This document shows positions 14,362 to 37,199 of a DNA stretch of 64,000 nucleotides, piece after piece. A model generated the notes under the pieces. That model made no database searches. It saw only the letters and a list, made by a program, of their open reading frames with translations, and was not told the origin of the DNA. Position 1 is the stretch's first letter. Each line of letters starts with the position of its first letter. Both the position numbers and the translations under genes were made by a program. Source of the DNA: Deltaproteobacteria bacterium (GTDB lineage: Bacteria; Desulfobacterota; GWC2-55-46); contig JACOUO010000011.1 of assembly GCA_016177845.1 (NCBI GenBank), positions 1-64,000 of the forward strand, in the 5' to 3' direction.

Positions 14362-14389
14362 TCATTCTACAATTGCATATTGGATTAAT

Positions 14390-14503
14390 CTTATCCAGAG
14401 TGGCAGAGGGACTGGCCCTATGAAGCCACAGCAACCGGTTCGCTTAATAAGCGGATGTCAGGTGCTAAATCCAGCAGGGCTGTGAAAAGCCCTGGAAGAT
14501 AAG
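14390..14503 (+). promoter_or_regulatory. SAM-I (S-box) riboswitch
   Basis: The P1 strands are CTTATC (14390) and GATAAG (14498-14503). The core is canonical: GAGGGACTGGCCC, TGAAGCC, GCAACC, then GGTGCTAAATCC and a closing hairpin AGGGCTGTGAAAAGCCCT. SAM-I binds S-adenosylmethionine and normally switches downstream genes off. A terminator follows within 10 bases. Confidence 0.97.
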
Positions 14504-14512
14504 AAAAGGTGA

Positions 14513-27038: not shown

Positions 27039-27205
27039 TCCTATATGAAATGTGCCTTTTCGCACATCATTTTTTCTGTTCCGCATGGTAACAGAAGGTG
27101 ATGCGAAGAGGAGCTAAAGAACTTCCGGCGTTATGCCAGTTCGCCTTCAGGCTTTCCCCGACTGCCATCAACGCGCTTGTATCCCAAAAAAAGCGGAGAG
27201 GACAA

Positions 27206-27787
27206 ATGGATTTCAGCTTCACTCGCAAAAAGATAATTATAAAACCGGAATATCAGTTAAGGCTCGCGCTGACATTTTTCATTTACATAATTTTATATTC
27301 CATAGTTTTGGGTTTCATAATCTTTTATCCTTTATACAACGACCTTAACGCAGCCGCCAGCATAGAAGAGCAGACCCGCATATCAGCCCTTGTCCTTTAT
27401 CTGCACAAGAGGATATGGATAGGGCTCTTATTTGTAGCCGTTCTGGCCGCGGTACATGCGATATTTGCGTCACATAAGTTAGTAGGCCCCATGTACCGGT
27501 TTGAGAAGGCGATGAATGAGCTTATCAGGGGCAATTACAAGCTCAGGATACGCATAAGAAAGAAAGATGAGTTCAAGGAGATGGAAGGCCTTATCAATAG
27601 GCTTTCCGAGCTTCTTGATATTGAGAAGACAAGGGACGCGCAGTTCTATACTGATATGAAAATGCGGCTTGAGATGATCTCCGCGATGCTTGAGGCCGAA
27701 GGCGCAGCTTACCCTCCTGAGGTCAGGAGACTCATGCAGGACCTTGTTTTAGAGCTGAGTTCACGCGCGCAACATAAAAATTATTAA
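27206..27787 (+). CDS. HAMP-domain inner-membrane protein without an output domain
   Basis: 193 residues from ATG 27206, which has GGAGAGG 4 bases upstream. The ORF-track start at 27098 adds 36 unlikely residues. Two membrane helices (about 17-39 and 70-90) flank a short periplasmic loop. A HAMP-like segment (SHKLVGPMYRFEKAMNELIRGNY ... DEFKEMEGLINRL) and a coiled-coil tail follow. No kinase, methyl-accepting or cyclase domain is present. It pairs with the pseudopilin gene 9 bases downstream, so it may control or assemble that pilin-like protein. Confidence 0.75.
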   Translation: MDFSFTRKKIIIKPEYQLRLALTFFIYIILYSIVLGFIIFYPLYNDLNAAASIEEQTRISALVLYLHKRIWIGLLFVAVLAAVHAIFASHKLVGPMYRFEKAMNELIRGNYKLRIRIRKKDEFKEMEGLINRLSELLDIEKTRDAQFYTDMKMRLEMISAMLEAEGAAYPPEVRRLMQDLVLELSSRAQHKNY

Positions 27788-27795
27788 GGTTTTTA

Positions 27796-28275
27796 ATGTT
27801 GAGAACATCTTCCAAAAAAAAGAGTTCAGCACAGGGCGGCTTCACCGTCCTTGAGCTTCTTTTTGTCATGTTCATAGTCGCGATCCTGGCTGTTTTCGCC
27901 ATCCCGGCTTATATAGGCTTTATTCAAAAGGCACGGGAGACTGCGGTTGTGTCCTATCTTTCAAAGATAAAAAAGGCCGAGGAAGTCCACAGGCTCGGGC
28001 TTAATTCAGGCGGCCTCTATTCCAACAGTTTTGATGTTCTTGAAGATACCGGTATCGTCCCTCCCGCTACAGGCATCTCCAGCCGTGTGGAACATGATTA
28101 CACCTTTGACCTTACTGCCGGAGTTGACGGAAGCAGTCTGCCCTACTGGAGGGTTAATGCCGCTCCTTTAAGTTCGGATGCAAGCGCAAAATGGTTCTAT
28201 ATCGATGATCAGGGCCCTGTGAGATACGAAACAGGGGCCGCGGCAACAGCCTCAAGCCCAGTCTTAAAACGATAA
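27796..28275 (+). CDS. Type IV pilin-like protein (pseudopilin)
   Basis: 159 residues. A basic leader ends with GG, and cleavage would give FTVLELLFVMFIVAILAVFA, the class IV prepilin signature with Glu5. The remaining globular part is short and has no Cys. It differs from the main pilin at 56205 in sequence, size and lack of an aromatic-rich helix end. It is not next to the pil genes, so it may be a minor pilin or part of a secretion pseudopilus. The peptidase that cleaves it is not in this window. Confidence 0.87.
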   Translation: MLRTSSKKKSSAQGGFTVLELLFVMFIVAILAVFAIPAYIGFIQKARETAVVSYLSKIKKAEEVHRLGLNSGGLYSNSFDVLEDTGIVPPATGISSRVEHDYTFDLTAGVDGSSLPYWRVNAAPLSSDASAKWFYIDDQGPVRYETGAAATASSPVLKR

Positions 28276-28442: not shown

Positions 28443-29660
28443 ATGAACCAACAGGGGATTGAATTCCCGGGCCGTTACAGAACCATTATCAAGATAATTC
28501 TGCTCACGATACTGCTTATCTATCCGCTTCTCGTCAATGCCGAAACGCAACCCGAATCAAAATCAGTCGAGTCCACAGGCATGGCGGTCATTACAGATAA
28601 CAATGTGCCCGTAGCACGGGACGCAGCCGTTGGGGACGCCCTGAGAAAGGCTGTTGAACAGGCTGTAGGCACCATGGTCTCTTCTGAGACAATGGTTGAG
28701 AACTTCCAGCTCCTCTCCGATAATGTTTACACAAAGACACAGGGCTACATAAAGAGTTATACGGTTACCAAAGAAGGGCAGTCACAGGGCTTTTATCAGG
28801 TGACTGTAAAGGCGTTGGTCGAGGTAGGCACTCTTATGGACGACCTTAACGCAATGGGGATTTTACAGAAAAAGGCAGAAAAGCCCAGGGTGCTTTTCAT
28901 GATAGCCGAAAAGAACATAGGGCATAAGTATTATACATTCTGGTGGTGGGGCAAGAGCGAGTTCAAGGGCGAGACCGTGGATATATCAGCCGCGGAGACA
29001 TCCTTGAAGCAAATTTTCCTTAATAAAGGCTTCAATGTTGTCGATATGTCAGGGAGCACCGAGAGCTTTGTCGTTGAAGACTCTTTCAAGGTTGAAGACC
29101 TCACAAAAGACGGCGCAAAACAGATAGGCAAGAAGCTTAACGCGGAAATAGTAGTATTCGGCAAGGCAATGGCAAAGGAAGGCCCGAGGACGCCCGAGAG
29201 CGCGGTAGGGACCTATCTGGCGGACATAACGCTTCAGGCAGTAAGGGTAGATGACGGCGGAGTGCTTGCCTCAGCCAGCGGCCACGGGGCGGCCCGCCAT
29301 ATATCCGAGATTACAGGCGGCTCTGAGGCAATACAGAAGGCGTCTTCCGAGCTTGGTGAGAAGCTCATTGAGCAGATAGTCCAGAGGTGGTCCGCAGGCC
29401 ATGAGATTACAGTTAGGCTCAGGGGCGTTACCGATTACCTCAGAGTTGTGGAATTTAAAAACCTCCTCAGGGGCAGGGTCAGGGGAGTGCAGTCAGTCTA
29501 CCAGAGAAGGTTTGAGAACGGGGAAGCCATATTCGAGATTGAGTCAAAAGTACCTGCCCAGCAGGTAGCTGATGACATACTCAAGCTCGGGTTGAGCCTG
29601 AGGGTTTTAAGCACCTCGCCCAATACGATAACGGTTGTAATGGAGCCGGTGCAGCAGTAA
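28443..29660 (+). CDS. FlgT N-domain-like exported protein
   Basis: 405 residues. It starts at ATG 28443 after AGGAGG and has a hydrophobic export segment (about 14-33, ending V-N-A). The first domain (about 40-130) has the FlgT N-terminal pattern: GMAVITDNNVPVARDAAVGDALRKAVEQAVG, then YTKTQGYIKSY and a beta strand YQVTVKALVEVG. The middle (about 145-290) looks like the nucleotide-binding-like fold seen in CsgG/LpoB-type proteins. A C-terminal region of alternating strands follows. FlgT is a Vibrio flagellar H-ring component, but no flagellar gene is present here. It is the first gene of a six-gene envelope operon. Confidence 0.72.
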   Translation: MNQQGIEFPGRYRTIIKIILLTILLIYPLLVNAETQPESKSVESTGMAVITDNNVPVARDAAVGDALRKAVEQAVGTMVSSETMVENFQLLSDNVYTKTQGYIKSYTVTKEGQSQGFYQVTVKALVEVGTLMDDLNAMGILQKKAEKPRVLFMIAEKNIGHKYYTFWWWGKSEFKGETVDISAAETSLKQIFLNKGFNVVDMSGSTESFVVEDSFKVEDLTKDGAKQIGKKLNAEIVVFGKAMAKEGPRTPESAVGTYLADITLQAVRVDDGGVLASASGHGAARHISEITGGSEAIQKASSELGEKLIEQIVQRWSAGHEITVRLRGVTDYLRVVEFKNLLRGRVRGVQSVYQRRFENGEAIFEIESKVPAQQVADDILKLGLSLRVLSTSPNTITVVMEPVQQ

Positions 29661-29725
29661 GATAGTTCGGAATAAACCTGAAAAGCCCTGATTTAAGGTC
29701 CGTGGGGCAGTTGAGATGAGATTTT

Positions 29726-30517
29726 ATGAAAAAGTTTCGTGTACTGCTCTTAGCCGTTTTTTTGCTTGTTCTCGGCGCATGTGCCGCGCCCATGCGCCAC
29801 AGAGTTCCTCCCAATTACTCTAACCCGATATATACGGTAGCCGTTTTGCCGATGTATAACGCCTCCAACGATGTGGAGGGGGCGCGCATGGTCAGGGAGG
29901 AATTCAATAAGAGGATTCAGAATATCAATTATCTTATAAAGCCTCTGAGCGAAGTCGATAGGGTGCTGATGGACCAGATGGGCATAACCCTGGGCTCGCA
30001 GCTTGAGATGACAAACCCGAAGCAGCTTGGTGAGATACTCGGGGTGGACGGGGTCGTTTACGGTTATCTCCTGAACTTCGATGATATCACCACAGGCGTA
30101 TACAACGCCAAAAGGGTAAGGGCAGGTTTTAAGCTCGTGGACACCAAAACAGGCGTCGTGATGTGGGCTGACGGGCATGGCGTAAAAAGCCTGCTTGCGG
30201 GAAGCGATGTGGGCACAGGCATAACATTATTGAAGGAAGCTCAGGACTCTAAAGAGGGGCTTGATTATTACAAGGCCATAGAAGGCCTTAATGAAATACC
30301 GGGGCTGAAAAACTGGCAGATAATAAGGGCTGGAGGCACGAAAAAAGTAGGGGATGCGGCTGCCTTGGCCCTTGGTGAAAAACTTTTGACAAAGGCCTTG
30401 AAGATACATTTAAGGCTTGAATCCGATACAATGCTCAATAGCATTGTAAAGGGCTTCCCGGCAGGGCCGGGCTCTTCGAGGACAGCGGCAGCTCCGTCAG
30501 AGCCTGAAAAAAAATAA
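29726..30517 (+). CDS. GNA1162/DUF799-like lipoprotein
   Basis: 263 residues. The lipobox LGAC gives a lipid-anchored Cys at residue 19. The domain at about 35-190 fits the GNA1162 (DUF799) family: YTVAVLPMYNASNDVEGARMVREEF, then LGVDGVVYGYLLNF and KLVDTKTGVVMWADGHG. In proteobacteria this family is usually found in a small operon with a CsgG-like protein and a DUF4810 lipoprotein. Here CsgG follows directly, but the third partner is replaced by a TPR/SLH protein. The function is unknown; an outer-membrane periplasmic complex is likely. Confidence 0.82.
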   Translation: MKKFRVLLLAVFLLVLGACAAPMRHRVPPNYSNPIYTVAVLPMYNASNDVEGARMVREEFNKRIQNINYLIKPLSEVDRVLMDQMGITLGSQLEMTNPKQLGEILGVDGVVYGYLLNFDDITTGVYNAKRVRAGFKLVDTKTGVVMWADGHGVKSLLAGSDVGTGITLLKEAQDSKEGLDYYKAIEGLNEIPGLKNWQIIRAGGTKKVGDAAALALGEKLLTKALKIHLRLESDTMLNSIVKGFPAGPGSSRTAAAPSEPEKK

Positions 30518-30603
30518 TTTTTTAGGCTGCTGACCTGAAGTGCCGAGGTTTTCAGTCCTCGAATCGGTTTATTCGAAATTTGGATTTTTAACAGGAGGTA
30601 TAT

Positions 30604-31569
30604 ATGATTAAGAGCTTGAGTTACAGGCCTGTGATTTTCACCGCCCTTTTGGCCGGTGTTTTTATTTTTACGGGCTGCGGGTCTATTAACACTACGGGAG
30701 TGGTTAAAGACGATGTAACGCTTTCCGGGCAGACAAAAAAACTTGAGGAAGCGGGTTCCCAGTACAGGGGGCCTGAATATACCATAGCCATTCTGCACTT
30801 TGACAACAAGACGCCGAGCAGGACTATCGGGGTTGGCGAGGCCGCAACAGATGTCCTGAGAACAATTGTAAAGCAGTCGGGCCTTGAGCCTATTGTGCTT
30901 ACAAAAGATGAGATGAAGCAGCAGGAGAGGATGATAGAGCTACAGCAGACAGGCGCGGTAAAGACAGGCAAGAAAAACGCCGCCGAAGGCTTTGACTCAA
31001 TTGACTTCAGGATCTCAGGTTCAGTCACATCATATTCAGAGCTTGAGGAATCATCAGATAATCTCCTGACCCAGAGCAAGAACCATATAGCAAGGGTGCA
31101 GGTCGATTATGCGCTTGTCGATGTGGCAACAGGTAGAAGCCTTCTTTCAGAATCAGGAGTTGGCGAATACAGCAAAAAGACAAGCGGCGTGCTTGGGCTT
31201 GGCGCAAAATCCACGGCTGACCAGGCATTGAGGGACGGCGCATTGAGGGACGCCCTTACAAAGGCCATGACCAAAATGGTAAATAAGCTTAACTCTATCC
31301 CGTTCCAGAGCAGGGTAGTGCTTGTTGAGAGCAACAATGTAGTAATCAGGGCAGGCACAAAGAGCAGGCTTGACCCAGGTACGGTTATGGGCGTTTACAG
31401 GCCCGGAGCTGACCTCGTTGACCCTGATACAGGCAGGGTAATAGGCAAGAGGGAGAAGCAGATAGGCGAAGTAGTCCTCACCCAGCACCAGGGAGACAAT
31501 GTATCTGAGGCGACGATTAAATCAGGAGTTGGTTTTCAGACGGGCGATGTCGTAAAAGTCCTTAGATAG
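30604..31569 (+). CDS. CsgG/HfaB-like outer-membrane lipoprotein with FlgT C-domain-like tail
   Basis: 321 residues with lipobox TGCG and an AGGAGGT ribosome site. The CsgG-like domain (about 55-230) has YTIAILHFDNKTPS, FRISGSVTSYSE and DYALVDVATGRSLLSESG. The last about 85 residues (VVLVESNNVVIRAGTKSRLDPGTVMGVYRPG ... DPDTGRVIGK ... FQTGDVVKV) look like the FlgT C-terminal domain. CsgG forms the nonameric pore that exports curli subunits; HfaB is its holdfast homologue. No curli subunit gene is near, so either the cargo lies elsewhere or the protein forms a scaffold and not a pore. Confidence 0.83.
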   Translation: MIKSLSYRPVIFTALLAGVFIFTGCGSINTTGVVKDDVTLSGQTKKLEEAGSQYRGPEYTIAILHFDNKTPSRTIGVGEAATDVLRTIVKQSGLEPIVLTKDEMKQQERMIELQQTGAVKTGKKNAAEGFDSIDFRISGSVTSYSELEESSDNLLTQSKNHIARVQVDYALVDVATGRSLLSESGVGEYSKKTSGVLGLGAKSTADQALRDGALRDALTKAMTKMVNKLNSIPFQSRVVLVESNNVVIRAGTKSRLDPGTVMGVYRPGADLVDPDTGRVIGKREKQIGEVVLTQHQGDNVSEATIKSGVGFQTGDVVKVLR

Positions 31570-31578
31570 GAGGATTTG

Positions 31579-32790
31579 ATGAAAAATTTTTTAAAGGTAT
31601 TTTCTGTTTTTATTTGCATGGCTCTTCTTTTCGCGGGCTGTTCAAAGCCTGTGATGAAGTGCACTTCACCTGAGGACAACCCCAGGCACCATTATCTCAA
31701 GGGTATGGACCTTCTGGAGGAAAACAAGGTCGGAGACGCAACAGCCAAATTCGACCGTGCCGTTTACTGCGATGAAAAATTCAGCTCCGCGCACTCGGCC
31801 ATGGCGATTGTCGAGGCCATGAAAGCAAGCTCGCAAAAGACTGACGGATACCGCAGCGTTGACATTGCAAAGGCTATGGAGCACCTCAAGGCAGCTAAAA
31901 AGACCTCTGAAACGCCTGAGGACGACTTTGCGTACCATCTGGCCTCAATGCGCGTGAATATGATTCTCAAGCAGGCAGAGTGGCTTGATGAGGTCAAAGA
32001 TGATTACAAAGACGCGACAAAGCTTAAGGTCGATGAGAAGAAGCTCATCTATTATAACGGGAAGGAAGCAGCCTCATATTTCATGGGCGCTGCCTATCTT
32101 GACGCAAGGGAGTTCCAGAGCGCAAGGGATAAGTTCGGCGAAGTGCTGAGCGCGAAGAAGGACAGCAAATGGAATGCCTTTGCTGAGAGCGGATGGAAGA
32201 AGACGGATAAGATAGTAAGGGCTCTTGCAGGCATTACGCTCGGCGATGTGGGCAAGGAGATTGCCTTGAAAGATTCGGTCAAGAGGGGAGATATGGCGGC
32301 CCTTTTTGTCGATGAGCTTATGCTTGAGAAGCTCTTTGCGGGCAGGATTCCCGTCAAATCAGCGGTCGATAAGAAGCAGCCTGATTTCATCCCTGCCGAT
32401 ATGCTCAACAACGCGTTCAGGGAAGAGGTCAAGACAATGATGAAGTGGGAAGTAAGGGGGCTTGAGCCTGTCTATGACAATACGACAAAGGCATTCCTCT
32501 TTAAGCCTGATGAGCCGGTCTCAAGAAAAGAGTTTGCCCTTGTGCTTGAGGATGTGCTTTTAAAGATTACAGGAGATGAGGGGCTCTCAAGGGCGTATTT
32601 CGGCCATGAGAAATCCCCGTTCCCGGATGTGCCTGCCACATCAGCCTGGTACAATGCCATTATGAACATAACCACAAGGAACATGATGGAGACCGAGCTT
32701 TCAGGCGAGTTCAGGCCTAATGACAATATCGACGGGGCAGAGGCAGTGCTTGCCATAAGGGTATTAAGGCAAAGGCTCAATATAAATTAA
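31579..32790 (+). CDS. Lipoprotein with TPR-like repeats and SLH-like domains
   Basis: 403 residues from ATG 31579 (GGAGG 5 bases upstream; the ORF-track start TTG 31576 is one codon early). The lipobox is FAGC. Residues 40-220 form TPR-like helices (YLKGMDLLEENKVGDATAKFDRAVYCDEKF). Residues 225-400 carry SLH-like segments (KRGDMAALFVDELML; VSRKEFALVLEDVL; FRPNDNIDGAEAVLAIRVL; FPDVPATSAWYNAIM). SLH domains bind cell-wall or outer-membrane-linked polymers. It sits where DUF4810 proteins occur in related operons, and could link the CsgG-like assembly to the wall. Confidence 0.77.
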   Translation: MKNFLKVFSVFICMALLFAGCSKPVMKCTSPEDNPRHHYLKGMDLLEENKVGDATAKFDRAVYCDEKFSSAHSAMAIVEAMKASSQKTDGYRSVDIAKAMEHLKAAKKTSETPEDDFAYHLASMRVNMILKQAEWLDEVKDDYKDATKLKVDEKKLIYYNGKEAASYFMGAAYLDAREFQSARDKFGEVLSAKKDSKWNAFAESGWKKTDKIVRALAGITLGDVGKEIALKDSVKRGDMAALFVDELMLEKLFAGRIPVKSAVDKKQPDFIPADMLNNAFREEVKTMMKWEVRGLEPVYDNTTKAFLFKPDEPVSRKEFALVLEDVLLKITGDEGLSRAYFGHEKSPFPDVPATSAWYNAIMNITTRNMMETELSGEFRPNDNIDGAEAVLAIRVLRQRLNIN

Positions 32791-32831
32791 TTCCCGATTA
32801 AGTGATGGAAGCCAATTAACGGAGGCGATAG

Positions 32832-33680
32832 ATGAGAAAATTGCTGTTAGTTCCCCTGATGATCTTCCTCTTTGCCGCAAGCGCATGGGCGGAGATGAAC
32901 CAGGGTTTGCCGCAGGTGGTCACAGACCCGAGACAGGCCTTTGTGACGGGTTCGATAGTTGTTAAGGGAGAGGGCGCTGCACCCACGGAAAAGAAGCTTT
33001 CAGCCGCGCAGAAGAGGATTATGGCACTGAGGGCGGCTAAGGTAGTGGCGCTCAGGGAAATTGCCGAGATATTGGATGGTGTTGCCATAAGCGGCGAGAC
33101 AACGGTAGTCAATGCCGCCGCTGAATCGGATACTGTCCGCGCTACCGTGCAGGGCATCGTAAAAGGCGCGCAGGTAATCAAGGAAATATACGACCCTTTA
33201 AGCGAGATGGCGGTCGTATATGTAACAGTGCCCATGACAGGGCCTAACGGCATTATGGGGCAGTTGCTGCCTCAGGTCATACCCCTGGCGCCTCCGGCAT
33301 GGCCTGCATACCAGCAGCCGCTGGAGACTGTACAGCCGTCCAATTTTGACGGCCTTATAATAGATGCAAGGGAGAAGCCGTTCAGGCCGGCCCTTATTAA
33401 CCGCATAGTCACAAAGAACGGTGAAAGCATCTATGACCCCGCAAAGGTCGCCCAGGACATACTTGTTGAAAGGGGAGCCGCGGAATATACCAATGACATT
33501 GGGAAGGCAAAGGCTCTTTTAGGTGAAAGGGGCTCAAGCAATCCTCTTATCATAAAAGCCGAAGGCATTGTAAGGTCAACGGATGTGGAGGTTGCTCCTG
33601 AGGACGCGAGCGCGATATTCAGTTCAAATCAGTCCAAAAACTACCTTGAAGGCGCAAAGGTGGTTTTTGTTTTAAGATAG
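32832..33680 (+). CDS. LPP20/FlgP-like exported protein
   Basis: 282 residues with a signal peptide cleaved after A-W-A. There is no lipobox. The first half (about 35-140) matches the LPP20/FlgP pattern: KRIMALRAAKVVALREIAEIL followed by AESDTVRATVQGIVKGAQVIKEIYD and VVYVTVPM. The second half after a Pro-rich linker contains a domain with PSNFDGLIIDAREKPFRPAL and AQDILVERGAAEYTND. FlgP is the H-ring partner of FlgT in Vibrio. Together with the FlgT-like genes it suggests a ring-like envelope structure without a flagellum. Confidence 0.75.
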   Translation: MRKLLLVPLMIFLFAASAWAEMNQGLPQVVTDPRQAFVTGSIVVKGEGAAPTEKKLSAAQKRIMALRAAKVVALREIAEILDGVAISGETTVVNAAAESDTVRATVQGIVKGAQVIKEIYDPLSEMAVVYVTVPMTGPNGIMGQLLPQVIPLAPPAWPAYQQPLETVQPSNFDGLIIDAREKPFRPALINRIVTKNGESIYDPAKVAQDILVERGAAEYTNDIGKAKALLGERGSSNPLIIKAEGIVRSTDVEVAPEDASAIFSSNQSKNYLEGAKVVFVLR

Positions 33681-33714
33681 CTGTTGAGAAGAAAAAATAC
33701 TCGGAGGTGCAGTT

Positions 33715-34470
33715 GTGAGGAAATTGTTTGTAGCTGTTTTTATGTTTGTTGCTCTCGCTTTCACAGCGTCAACAGCTTCAGCCGTGGTAGATGTTGAAGG
33801 CAGGTACTGGTTTACTGAGCTTGACGACACTATAAAGGTAACGAGCGGAAATGTTATCGGAACTGAGATAGACCTTAAAAATGACCTTGGCGTCGATGAT
33901 AAGAAGAACTTCTGGGAAGGCAGAATAACCCTTGAGCTCGGAAGCCACAAATTGAGATACGGCTATATGCCCCTTAAATGGGACGGCTCTAAAAACCTGA
34001 CACAGTCAGTTGTCTTCAATGGCCAGACTTACTCAGCCTCCGCCGATGTAAATTCAGAACTTAAGATGGATTATCACCGCCTCGGGTATGAGTATGATTT
34101 TTTTGATACCCTCAATAACCGTCTCGGCGTAATCCTTGAGGTAAAATATTTTGATGGGGACGCAAAGCTCAAGTCAACTTCCCTTGGCCTCAATGAGCAG
34201 GAAAGCTTCAAGCTGCCGATCCCCACAGTGGGTATAACAGGTCAGGTAGGCCTTCCCCTTCTTTTAAGCGTCGGCGGTGAAGTGACAGGCGTAACACTGG
34301 GCAGCTCGGCATATCTTGTAGATGCGGAAGCAGGCATTAACCTTAAGCCTGCCCCGTTTGTCGTGATATCTGGCGGCTACAGGATCTTTAAGCTCCATGT
34401 CGAGAGTGATGATGATAAAGTAGACCTTACTGTAAAAGGCCCGTTCGTATCTCTCAGGGCTGATTTCTAA
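33715..34470 (+). CDS. Small outer-membrane beta-barrel protein
   Basis: 251 residues from GTG 33715 after GGAGGTG. The signal peptide ends A-S-A. The mature part consists of alternating strands (VDVEGRYWFTEL, WEGRITLELGSHKLRYGY, MDYHRLGYEYDFF, LGVILEVKYFDGDAKL, YLVDAEAGINL, VVISGGYRIFKLHVE) and ends FVSLRADF with a terminal Phe. Eight strands are plausible. It closes the FlgT/CsgG/FlgP-like operon and may be its membrane-embedded part or its client. A terminator follows. Confidence 0.8.
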   Translation: MRKLFVAVFMFVALAFTASTASAVVDVEGRYWFTELDDTIKVTSGNVIGTEIDLKNDLGVDDKKNFWEGRITLELGSHKLRYGYMPLKWDGSKNLTQSVVFNGQTYSASADVNSELKMDYHRLGYEYDFFDTLNNRLGVILEVKYFDGDAKLKSTSLGLNEQESFKLPIPTVGITGQVGLPLLLSVGGEVTGVTLGSSAYLVDAEAGINLKPAPFVVISGGYRIFKLHVESDDDKVDLTVKGPFVSLRADF

Positions 34471-34490
34471 ATAAGAATTTTAATCATTCA

Positions 34491-34531
34491 CCGGGGGTAT
34501 TTTCCATCATTGGAATCCCCCGGTTTTTTTA
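34491..34531 (+). terminator. Intrinsic terminator of the CsgG/FlgT operon
   Basis: CCGGGGG pairs with CCCCCGG around a 19-base loop, itself partly paired (TTCCATCATTGGAA), and is followed by seven T. The gap to 34705 also has a TATAAT at 34643-34648, a possible -10 of the Mla operon with a poor -35. Confidence 0.9.
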
Positions 34532-34705: not shown

Positions 34706-35491
34706 ATGAAAATTATCAGGTATTTAGGCGAATCTGTCCTGAGGCGTTTCACGGTCCTCAGTTCGGTATGGGAAATACTCCTCTCCTCATTTCTGAATCT
34801 CATCTTCAGGTTCCATCGGGGCCGCAAGGCTACCTTAAGAGTACTTCTCAAACAGATATACTTCACAGGTTTTGAGGCCATACCCATCGTGTCCTGGATA
34901 GCCATTGTCCTCGGCCTCATCATCGTCACACAATCACTTTCAATCCTTCCCAGATTCGGCGGAGAGGGCTTGATAGGCGAGATATTCGTATGGGTAGTCA
35001 TCAGGGAAGTCGGCCCTGTATTCGCCTCTGTAATCGTTATCGCGAGGAGCGGAACAGCGATTGCCTCCGAGCTTGGCAGCATGAAGATATCCAAAGAGAT
35101 AACCTCCCTTGAAGTGATGGGCATAGACCCCATCCATTACCTCATAACACCAAGGGTAATCGGGACCGGCATCAGCGTACTTCTCCTGACATTCTATTTC
35201 GAGGCAGTATCCATCCTTGGCGGCTATTTGCTCGCCGGCTTCGGCAAGAATATCTCTTTTTCCGTCTACACGCAGAGCATACTTGAGGCAATGGGGTTTC
35301 TTGAGATAGGAGTTTCGCTCTTGAAGAGCTTACTCTTCGGGCTTATAATAGGCGCAGTCTGTTCTTATCACGGGTTGATGGCAGAGAAGTCAATTACGCA
35401 GATACCGCAGCAGACCACAAAGGCGGTCATAGGAAGCCTGAGGCTTGTCTTTGTGATGGATGCTGTAATAACTTTTGTCTTTTTTATGTAG
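34706..35491 (+). CDS. mlaE: MlaE-type phospholipid ABC transporter permease
   Basis: 261 residues. The MlaE family core is clear: FTGFEAIPIVSWIAIVLGLIIVTQ, then FGGEGLIGEIFVWVVIREVGPVFASVIVIARSGTAIASELGSMKISKEITSLEVMGIDP, and LKSLLFGLIIGAVCSYHG. Five or six membrane helices are visible. The complex carries phospholipids between inner and outer membranes. Its ATPase partner is the next gene, which is degenerate, and the MCE protein follows. GGGAAAAGG serves as ribosome site. Confidence 0.95.
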   Translation: MKIIRYLGESVLRRFTVLSSVWEILLSSFLNLIFRFHRGRKATLRVLLKQIYFTGFEAIPIVSWIAIVLGLIIVTQSLSILPRFGGEGLIGEIFVWVVIREVGPVFASVIVIARSGTAIASELGSMKISKEITSLEVMGIDPIHYLITPRVIGTGISVLLLTFYFEAVSILGGYLLAGFGKNISFSVYTQSILEAMGFLEIGVSLLKSLLFGLIIGAVCSYHGLMAEKSITQIPQQTTKAVIGSLRLVFVMDAVITFVFFM

Positions 35492-35503
35492 GGTTTTAAA
35501 AGA

Positions 35504-36175
35504 ATGGCTCAATTCGTAGAGATAAAGGAACTGACAAGCTATTCGGAGGATGGGAGGGCGGTATTTGAAAATGCCGGCCTGATCTTAAAAGGCGGGGAAA
35601 GGGTTCTTATTACCGCGCCTGTGGCATCAGGCAAAAGCCTTTTGCTTAAGCTCCTCTCAGGCATTGAGAAGCCTGAAAAAGGCCAAGTCCTCATATTCGG
35701 GGAGGATACCTCGGCAATTGATAATGAAGCTTTGAACAGGCTTCGCAGCAGGCTGGGGTTCGTTTTTCAGGATAATGTGCTTATAAGCAACCTCAAAGTG
35801 CTTGAGAACATCGCGCTCCCTTTATTATACCATTCAAATATGCCCTATGATGAGGTAATGGAGCGGGCTTTGGAACTCCTTGATAAAACGGGCTTCAGGG
35901 GCGACCCATGGGTACAGCCGGGAAGCCTTGCCCTCTACTCAAAGAAGGAAGTCGCAGTTGCCAGGGCAATGGCTTTGGAGCCTGACATAATAGTGTGCGA
36001 GAGCTTGTGCGAAGGGCTTACTGAGGCTGAAAAGGGCCAGATATCAGACCTTTTGATAAAATATCAGGAGAACAGTAACAGGCTTCTTGTATTTACTGCG
36101 GTCAATGACGCGGATGCAGGCCTCCTGAGGCCTGACCGTGTCATCAGGATTGAAGGGAACAGGTTTTTGGAATAG
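35504..36175 (+). CDS. MlaF-position ABC ATPase with degenerate catalytic motifs
   Basis: 223 residues, collinear with MlaF. The Walker A is APVASGKS (first Gly lost, GKS kept) and the Q-loop FVFQDN is intact. The signature LSGGQ is replaced by LALYS, followed by the usual VAVARAMALEPD. The Walker B is IIVCES: the Asp that holds magnesium is Cys, the Glu remains. The D-loop Asp is Thr (CEGLT) and the H-loop His is Asn (TAVNDAD). The frame is complete, so it is not a simple pseudogene. It may bind ATP without normal hydrolysis, or act in a passive or differently driven complex. It lies 12 bases after mlaE and directly before the MCE gene. Confidence 0.85.
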   Translation: MAQFVEIKELTSYSEDGRAVFENAGLILKGGERVLITAPVASGKSLLLKLLSGIEKPEKGQVLIFGEDTSAIDNEALNRLRSRLGFVFQDNVLISNLKVLENIALPLLYHSNMPYDEVMERALELLDKTGFRGDPWVQPGSLALYSKKEVAVARAMALEPDIIVCESLCEGLTEAEKGQISDLLIKYQENSNRLLVFTAVNDADAGLLRPDRVIRIEGNRFLE

Positions 36176-36176
36176 T

Positions 36177-37199
36177 ATGGATAAGATAAAAGAAAAGGAT
36201 TCAAGGTTTAAATACCTTGAGGTAAAGGTCGGCATAATGGCATTAATTGCCATTATAGGTATAATTATCTTAATTGTCCTTGTCGGGAGGGAAAAGGACC
36301 TGTTTACTCCCAAGTACCGCCTGCATTTTGTATCCATGAGCGGAACAGGCTTTACCGAGGGGATGCCTGTTAAGCTCTCCGGCTTCAAGATAGGCAGAGT
36401 GAAGAGCATCGAGCTTACGGATGACGCAAAGGTAAAGGTAACTACGGAGATAAATAAAAAGTACGAGAGATGGGTCAGGGAAGGGTCAAAGGCAAGGCTG
36501 TCCAAGGAGGGGCTCATAGGAGAATCCATAATTGAAGTGACCGTGGGAAACCCTGCCGGGAAGGTATTTGCGGACGGAGAGTTGATACCTTTTGAAAAAA
36601 CAGGCGGAATAGAGGAGCTTGTCGAAGAAGCCAAACCTGTACTGGAAGAAGTTAAGGAGATCATACATTACGCCAATAGCCCGGAGGGTGACATTAAACA
36701 GGCTCTCGGTAATATAAAAGACTTAACTGCCGAACTTAAGGAAACTCGCAAAACTATTGAAATTACATTGAAAAAAACCAATAATCTGATAGATAATGTA
36801 AATAGTAAAACAGCCCCTGCCGCTGATTCGGCATTGAAGATAATGAAGAACCTTGAAGGCGTGTCCGAGAGGATAGGCCCGGTCATGACACGCATAGAAG
36901 GCATTACGGTAAAAGCAGACACAGTTGCGGAAAAATTACCCGCAACACTGGATAAATTTGAAAAAACGGTCAATAATATCAAGAATATCACAGACACCTT
37001 TGCAGGAGAGACCCCAAGGATGAGGGAGATGCTCATTAACGCCGATGATACGCTTCGTGACGGCAAGACCATCATGAGGGGCGTTAAGCAGAGCTGGCCT
37101 GTAAGGTTGATGGTGCCACAGCCAAAAGACCCGGGGCTGGTGCCGCTCGACGGTTATTTGTTCGACAGGAGGATGAATGAAGTTGAAAAGAAGAAATAG
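36177..37199 (+). CDS. mlaD: MlaD-type MCE-domain protein
   Basis: 340 residues from ATG 36177, one base after the ATPase stop; the ORF-track start at 36138 lies inside that gene. One membrane helix (about 18-38) is followed by an MCE domain (about 45-125: YRLHFVSMSGTGFTEGMPVKLSGFKIGRVKSIEL). A long helical part (about 150-310, many Asn/Lys/Thr heptads) is likely a coiled coil forming a tunnel or needle. Its length exceeds the E. coli MlaD (183 aa) and is closer to the longer Mce/PqiB-like forms. It would form a hexameric ring moving lipids across the periplasm. Confidence 0.92.
   Translation: MDKIKEKDSRFKYLEVKVGIMALIAIIGIIILIVLVGREKDLFTPKYRLHFVSMSGTGFTEGMPVKLSGFKIGRVKSIELTDDAKVKVTTEINKKYERWVREGSKARLSKEGLIGESIIEVTVGNPAGKVFADGELIPFEKTGGIEELVEEAKPVLEEVKEIIHYANSPEGDIKQALGNIKDLTAELKETRKTIEITLKKTNNLIDNVNSKTAPAADSALKIMKNLEGVSERIGPVMTRIEGITVKADTVAEKLPATLDKFEKTVNNIKNITDTFAGETPRMREMLINADDTLRDGKTIMRGVKQSWPVRLMVPQPKDPGLVPLDGYLFDRRMNEVEKKK

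Follow-up and report, generated by a model that had tools for sequence, protein, structure and literature searches.

A conserved, flagellum-independent gene module of FlgT-, FlgP- and CsgG-like envelope proteins in Desulfobacterota, with relatives in Nitrospirota

What might a bacterium build from relatives of flagellar outer-ring proteins when the genes encoding them are retained irrespective of flagella? This question is raised by six open reading frames, here called genes A to F, located at 28443-34470 in a stretch of 64,000 nucleotides (the window) from a Deltaproteobacteria bacterium (Desulfobacterota, GWC2-55-46; assembly GCA_016177845.1, contig JACOUO010000011.1, positions 1 to 64,000). 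A first-pass annotation made from the sequence alone had described six genes in one direction and proposed that they encode a ring-shaped outer-membrane machine for secretion or anchoring. All six open reading frames were present in that arrangement, on the + strand. Genes A, B, C, D and E form a real conserved module, in which B, like the additional gene F, is dispensable, and the module is independent of flagella. Judged by homology, the chance is about even that it builds a non-flagellar, outer-membrane-anchored periplasmic ring or collar of FlgP/FlgT-type subunits, scaffolded by the product of gene D.

Gene C was searched in 198 genomes of the phylum, and the genes in its neighbourhoods were labelled, at first by means of the six proteins and later of profiles. 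The genomes of the same class displayed the order A-B-C-D-E, often followed by F, and two other families displayed the order E-D-A-B-C with 25-39% identity. The order A-(B)-C-D-E recurred in Nitrospirota, some Geobacter relatives, Thermosulfurimonas and others. When named genomes were scanned with the profile of D, 134 relatives emerged, and the 80 that were kept belonged to Desulfobacterota (Geobacter relatives, Trichlorobacter thiogenes, Geotalea, Geomonas, Thermosulfurimonas and Desulfothermus) and Nitrospirota. Among 79 named D loci, E-like genes were detected in at least 68, A-like in at least 51, C-like in at least 40, B-like in at least 37 and F-like in at least 21, these counts being lower bounds as some contigs end early. 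D was present in 41 of the 198 genomes and was accompanied by E in 31 of these (Fisher p 2.6e-15); D also co-occurred with A (p 7.9e-11) and E with A (p 1.9e-25). Linkage and co-occurrence both indicate that the genes do not separate freely across genomes; free separation had been named at first pass as an outcome that would speak against the proposal. No description of such a module was found in the open-access literature, including that on LPP20/FlgT-like proteins outside flagella, on GNA1162 with CsgG and on SLH with CsgG, although subscription papers may hold more.

The genome from which the window derives (30 contigs, 100% complete) encodes two flagellin-N proteins, one of which is flagellin, together with FliF and FlhA. 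These flagellar genes are located on the same contig as the module, 430-500 kb away and outside the window. A complete-looking curli cluster was detected on contig C9 (G000:C9:82000-101900; L059:6188-11605), comprising three curlin-repeat proteins, a CsgG with normal membrane hairpins, CsgF, CsgE and a LuxR-type regulator. The first-pass statement that there was no flagellum and no curli is therefore wrong for the genome and true only inside the window. Its accompanying claim of an undescribed system holds in part, in that the module is uncharacterised, conserved and flagellum-independent, but not for a genome devoid of flagellum and curli.

FliF was detected in 21 of the 41 genomes with D and in 88 of the 157 without it (p 0.60). 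Among the 28 genomes encoding D, E and A together, 16 lacked FliF. These counts ignore phylogeny. The genes thus do not always occur with a complete flagellar set; constant company of such a set was the other outcome named at first pass as speaking against the proposal. FlhA was missing as well from each of the seven FliF-less genomes with the module that were checked, namely G197, G016, G090, G019 and G075 (98-100% complete), G150 (90%) and G124 (79%). Three of them have flagellated congeners encoding both FliF and FlhA (G147 for G090, G122 for G019 and G039 for G075). Near-complete genomes without FliF and FlhA hold the module, and so it is kept without a flagellum even near flagellated kin. 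The retention of the set in such relatives suggests that the module is probably a stand-alone outer-membrane ring or tether.

Gene A (28443..29660, + strand) encodes a FlgT-like protein of 405 aa with a signal peptide, a FlgT_N/SHS2 domain, a TolB/FlgT_M-like middle domain and a C-terminal alpha/beta domain. It scored 34.1 bits for FlgT_N (PF16548; Pfam cut-off 28.8). The top match of its AlphaFold model in the PDB was FlgT (8z5n_0, 9.4e-11; 3w1e, 2.7e-10). A also matched Campylobacter jejuni FlgP (9hmf, 3.6e-5; this structure was assigned to C. jejuni FlgP by way of PMC12222027). Gene E (32832..33680, + strand) encodes a periplasmic protein of 282 aa without a lipobox, in which a FlgP/LPP20-type SHS2 domain is followed by a Tp0624-like C-terminal domain. 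Its LPP20 score of 18.8 bits is under the Pfam cut-off of 25.9, while a syntenic orthologue from another family reached 31.1 bits. The E family profile matched the solved FlgP structures of C. jejuni (9hmf, 1e-15) and Vibrio (8z5n, 1.5e-10), and its C-terminal half matched Treponema Tp0624 (5jir, 2.1e-5); the underlying alignment (A3) contains one row, L055 (16% identity), that is probably no E protein and slightly dilutes the profile. In the FlgP family, ring oligomerisation is reported to accompany an insert that follows the SHS2 helix and precedes strand 2 (PMC12222027). Both A and E aligned with C. jejuni FlgP across this ring-forming region with gaps of zero or one residue. The length of the insert was invariant in both families, flagellum-less species included, and amounted to 75-76 in all genuine rows of E. 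In the model of A the corresponding residues connect helix 55-75 with strand 100-114 and are modelled with low confidence.

Genes B (29726..30517, + strand) and C (30604..31569, + strand) encode lipoproteins of 263 and 321 aa, respectively. B contains a TolB/PelC/CsgG-type alpha/beta domain and is GNA1162-like (PF05643, 42.6 bits, Pfam cut-off 25.9), with a match of its family profile to the GNA1162 structure 4hrv at 8.8e-20. The lipobox of B is LGAC; this one and those of C and D were read by eye, and the lipobox cysteine is nearly invariant among the relatives of B and C. In C, a CsgG/FlgT_M-like domain (CsgG, PF03783, 26.7 bits, Pfam cut-off 20.8) precedes a FlgT_C/TsaP-C-like tail, and a syntenic Nitrospirota orthologue was over the cut-off for both CsgG and FlgT_C (the latter with 34.7 against 27). 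The best fold match of the C model was FlgT (2.8e-16), ahead of CsgG; as for A, the matching FlgT is that of the Vibrio LPHT ring.

Gene D (31579..32790, + strand, with the ATG at 31579 a more likely start than the TTG at 31576) encodes an outer-membrane-type lipoprotein of about 403 aa with an N-terminal TPR region and a C-terminal SLH region (PF00395, 46.1 bits, Pfam cut-off 20.8). SLH was over the cut-off in six of six distant D relatives tested, and the lipobox cysteine and the SLH arginine residues were invariant among the relatives of D. Thus, the domain assignments of the first-pass annotation were upheld for A (FlgT N-domain-like) and B (GNA1162-like lipoprotein) by Pfam, in B along with the lipobox; for C (CsgG-like with a FlgT C-domain-like tail) by Pfam, the orthologue and the model; for D (TPR/SLH lipoprotein) by Pfam and the lipobox; and for E (LPP20/FlgP-like) by the syntenic orthologue and the FlgP structures. 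The link to the cell wall that had been drawn from the SLH region fared less well. CsaB (TIGR03609) was over the cut-off in none of the 198 genomes, and the genome of the window gave no match to it, so the ligand of the SLH region of D must be a different one, perhaps a protein or the peptidoglycan; the domain stands, whereas classical wall anchoring by it is not supported. SpoIID-type wall-remodelling proteins were located close to D-E in 12 named loci, and these neighbours in other lineages point towards the cell wall.

In the proposed ring, the FlgP-type E and the FlgT-type A and C would oligomerise through their SHS2/TolB-like domains into at least one ring under the outer membrane. The lipoproteins B, C and D would fix it to the inner leaflet, the TPR region of D would act as a scaffold with the SLH region facing the cell wall, and the barrel F, where present, might be an outer-membrane partner. 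Such a ring could make the outer membrane stiffer and hold it to the wall round some envelope structure, which would then lie inside the ring, or it could stand alone as a tether. Several points weigh against this proposal. Ring formation is argued from homology only. The single-chain AlphaFold models are moderate (pLDDT 70-72), with TM-scores to FlgT of 0.3-0.5, which makes the domain assignment sounder than the overall shape. B and F are frequently absent, and just D-E is retained in many Geobacter loci. As CsaB was not found in the phylum, canonical binding of D to an SLH polymer is unsupported. Furthermore, searches of the genome of the window at an E-value <= 1e-15 gave A and E as the only copies, so that they could also serve the flagellum there or in flagellated species.

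More tentatively, the module may be an undescribed non-flagellar outer-membrane ring machine that is widespread in Desulfobacterota and Nitrospirota, drawn from the protein stock of the flagellar H-ring and basal disk and anchored by a TPR-SLH protein. If so, flagellar outer rings could be recruits from such a stand-alone envelope ring. Studies of FlgP and FlgT rings treat them as accessories of the flagellum, with a role in raising torque or in protecting the outer membrane. The survival of the same parts without a flagellum suggests an envelope function independent of it and provides a testable idea of how the flagellar outer rings arose. The module would also be a possible link between outer membrane and wall in Geobacter relatives and sulphate reducers, in which the organisation of the envelope bears on extracellular electron transfer.

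Other explanations were weighed against the same evidence. The module could be a flagellar H-ring or basal-disk set that happens to be encoded apart from the flagellar genes, and the fold and sequence matches to flagellar FlgT and FlgP in a flagellated genome, where searches at an E-value <= 1e-15 gave a single copy each of A and E, agree with this. It resembles the FlgO-FlgT-FlgP H/T rings of Vibrio (3w1e, 8z5n) in the FlgP-like E, in the domains and fold of the FlgT-like A and C, and in combining outer-membrane lipoproteins with periplasmic partners. However, the occurrence of D was independent of FliF, most FliF-encoding genomes lacked D, and A and E were, if anything, commoner without FliF; together with the near-complete genomes that retain the module but neither FliF nor FlhA, three of them beside flagellated congeners, this makes the explanation improbable. 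The module differs further from the Vibrio rings in that it is present without flagella, splits the FlgT-type domains over two proteins and adds the GNA1162-like B, the TPR-SLH protein D, the Tp0624-like domain of E and the barrel F. The solved FlgP structures that E matches are flagellar rings. The Campylobacter FlgP basal disk (9hmf, PMC12222027) shares with E the SHS2 domain and an alignment wholly or nearly free of gaps through the insert region, but the C. jejuni protein is a lipoprotein of 171 residues in the flagellar motor, whereas E has no lipobox, carries a further C-terminal domain and occurs without the motor. A curli-like secretion system with C as its CsgG-type pore is less probable still. 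C shares with curli CsgG (4uv3, 6l7a and that of the same genome) the core fold and a lipoprotein signal, and its CsgG domain is over the Pfam cut-off. In an alignment with the curli CsgG of the same genome, though, the constriction loop of about 11 residues was deleted and the two membrane-hairpin regions were shorter by about 6 and 12 residues, so that C is unlikely to be a secretion pore. The nearest fold of C was that of FlgT, no curlin-like cargo, CsgE or CsgF was found within the module, and curli has its own operon on contig C9, where these proteins are encoded beside a separate CsgG. Of the ring-shaped machine for secretion or anchoring proposed at first pass, the ring-type architecture is supported by homology only and secretion is not supported.

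A collar round a type IV pilus or type II secretin, comparable to TsaP round PilQ, is rather unlikely but agrees with several observations. The C-terminal domain of C resembles that of the TsaP ring, its tail matching the TsaP-type chains 6ve2 (1e-8) and 3jc8 (2e-4); PilQ was over the cut-off in 37 of 41 genomes with D and in 104 of 157 without it (p 0.0018, uncorrected); and a pilin-like gene lies immediately upstream of the module in the window and in some relatives. This association with PilQ ignores phylogeny, however, and rough counting by eye, family by family, gave no clear support. Two genomes, G157 (100% complete) and G182 (96%), encode D, E and A without a PilQ over the cut-off, so the link is not obligate; no LysM domain was found with Pfam, and the pilin linkage is confined to one group of close relatives. 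It is also unlikely that the lipoproteins are LpoB/CsgG-fold regulators of peptidoglycan synthases or a simple tether between outer membrane and wall, with no ring. The TPR-SLH lipoprotein D, the SpoIID neighbours and the Tp0624-like domain of E fit such a role, Tp0624 having been proposed as an envelope stabiliser, and one Nitrospirota C scored 32.8 bits for LpoB, over the Pfam cut-off of 22.3. Gene C of the window itself reached 15.9 bits and B, as a weak match, 15.3 (against 110.55), both below their cut-offs. Since LpoB, FlgT_M and CsgG share a fold, the LpoB match is not specific, and two SHS2 proteins with a ring-type insert would be unexpected for a simple regulator. As in the CsgG-DUF4810-GNA1162 trio (NMB1162-1164 type), the GNA1162-like and CsgG-like lipoprotein genes adjoin, but the module differs by the FlgT_C tail of C, by the presence of A, D and E, and by DUF4810, for which no gene was found in the window. 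In two other families C is followed by a small lipoprotein, for which a DUF4810 identity was considered and rejected, since it is a PEGA protein.

Gene F (33715..34470, + strand) encodes an accessory outer-membrane beta-barrel of 251 aa. The small barrel of the first-pass annotation thus resembles the TIGR04219 outer-membrane barrels, but its score of 75.7 bits is below the cut-off of 105. F is located downstream of E in its own class, and in some Nitrospirota-type loci a similar barrel precedes A; F-like barrels were detected 5' of A-C-D-E in L089, L092 (with one intervening gene), L094 and L112. An extra A-like protein is encoded between E and F in several genomes of the same class (L035:5759-6958, L078, L084). 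Extended sets were observed in Nitrospirota and one other family (L099:13382-21153, L112:7559-16499, L045:9750-17718), with a second FlgT_N protein, fusions of the TPR-CsgG and CsgG-fibronectin III types, and proteins of the transglutaminase, PEGA or FecR kind. In Desulfobacterales-type loci (L136:7635-16186, L148:7639-19263), A and D are separated by the genes of two unassigned lipoproteins, and downstream of E come a protein of 785-829 aa that belongs to no Pfam family and a TPR-SpoIID protein. For a neighbour of 730-840 aa in Desulfobacteria loci, an AsmA identity suggested by eye was not supported by any Pfam match.

The single terminator noted earlier was confirmed 3' of F as a strong hairpin followed by U7 (about 34490..34531, + strand; -21 kcal/mol, z-score -3.82 by RNA folding), which separates the set from the downstream mla genes. 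The region at 34706-37199 encodes MlaE, an ATPase and MlaD; next come a TPR lipoprotein and a response-regulator/kinase. This block is conserved immediately 3' of the module across most genomes of the class; membership of the mla genes in the module was rejected, as a terminator intervenes and they were not seen in the loci of other lineages. Directly upstream of A, a HAMP-like membrane protein and the pilin-like protein are encoded at 27098-28275, as in some close relatives. No RNA element or riboswitch was found 5' of gene A (no Rfam match at E-value <= 1), while a SAM riboswitch (RF00162, 91.2 bits) was detected elsewhere in the window, at 14388-14505.

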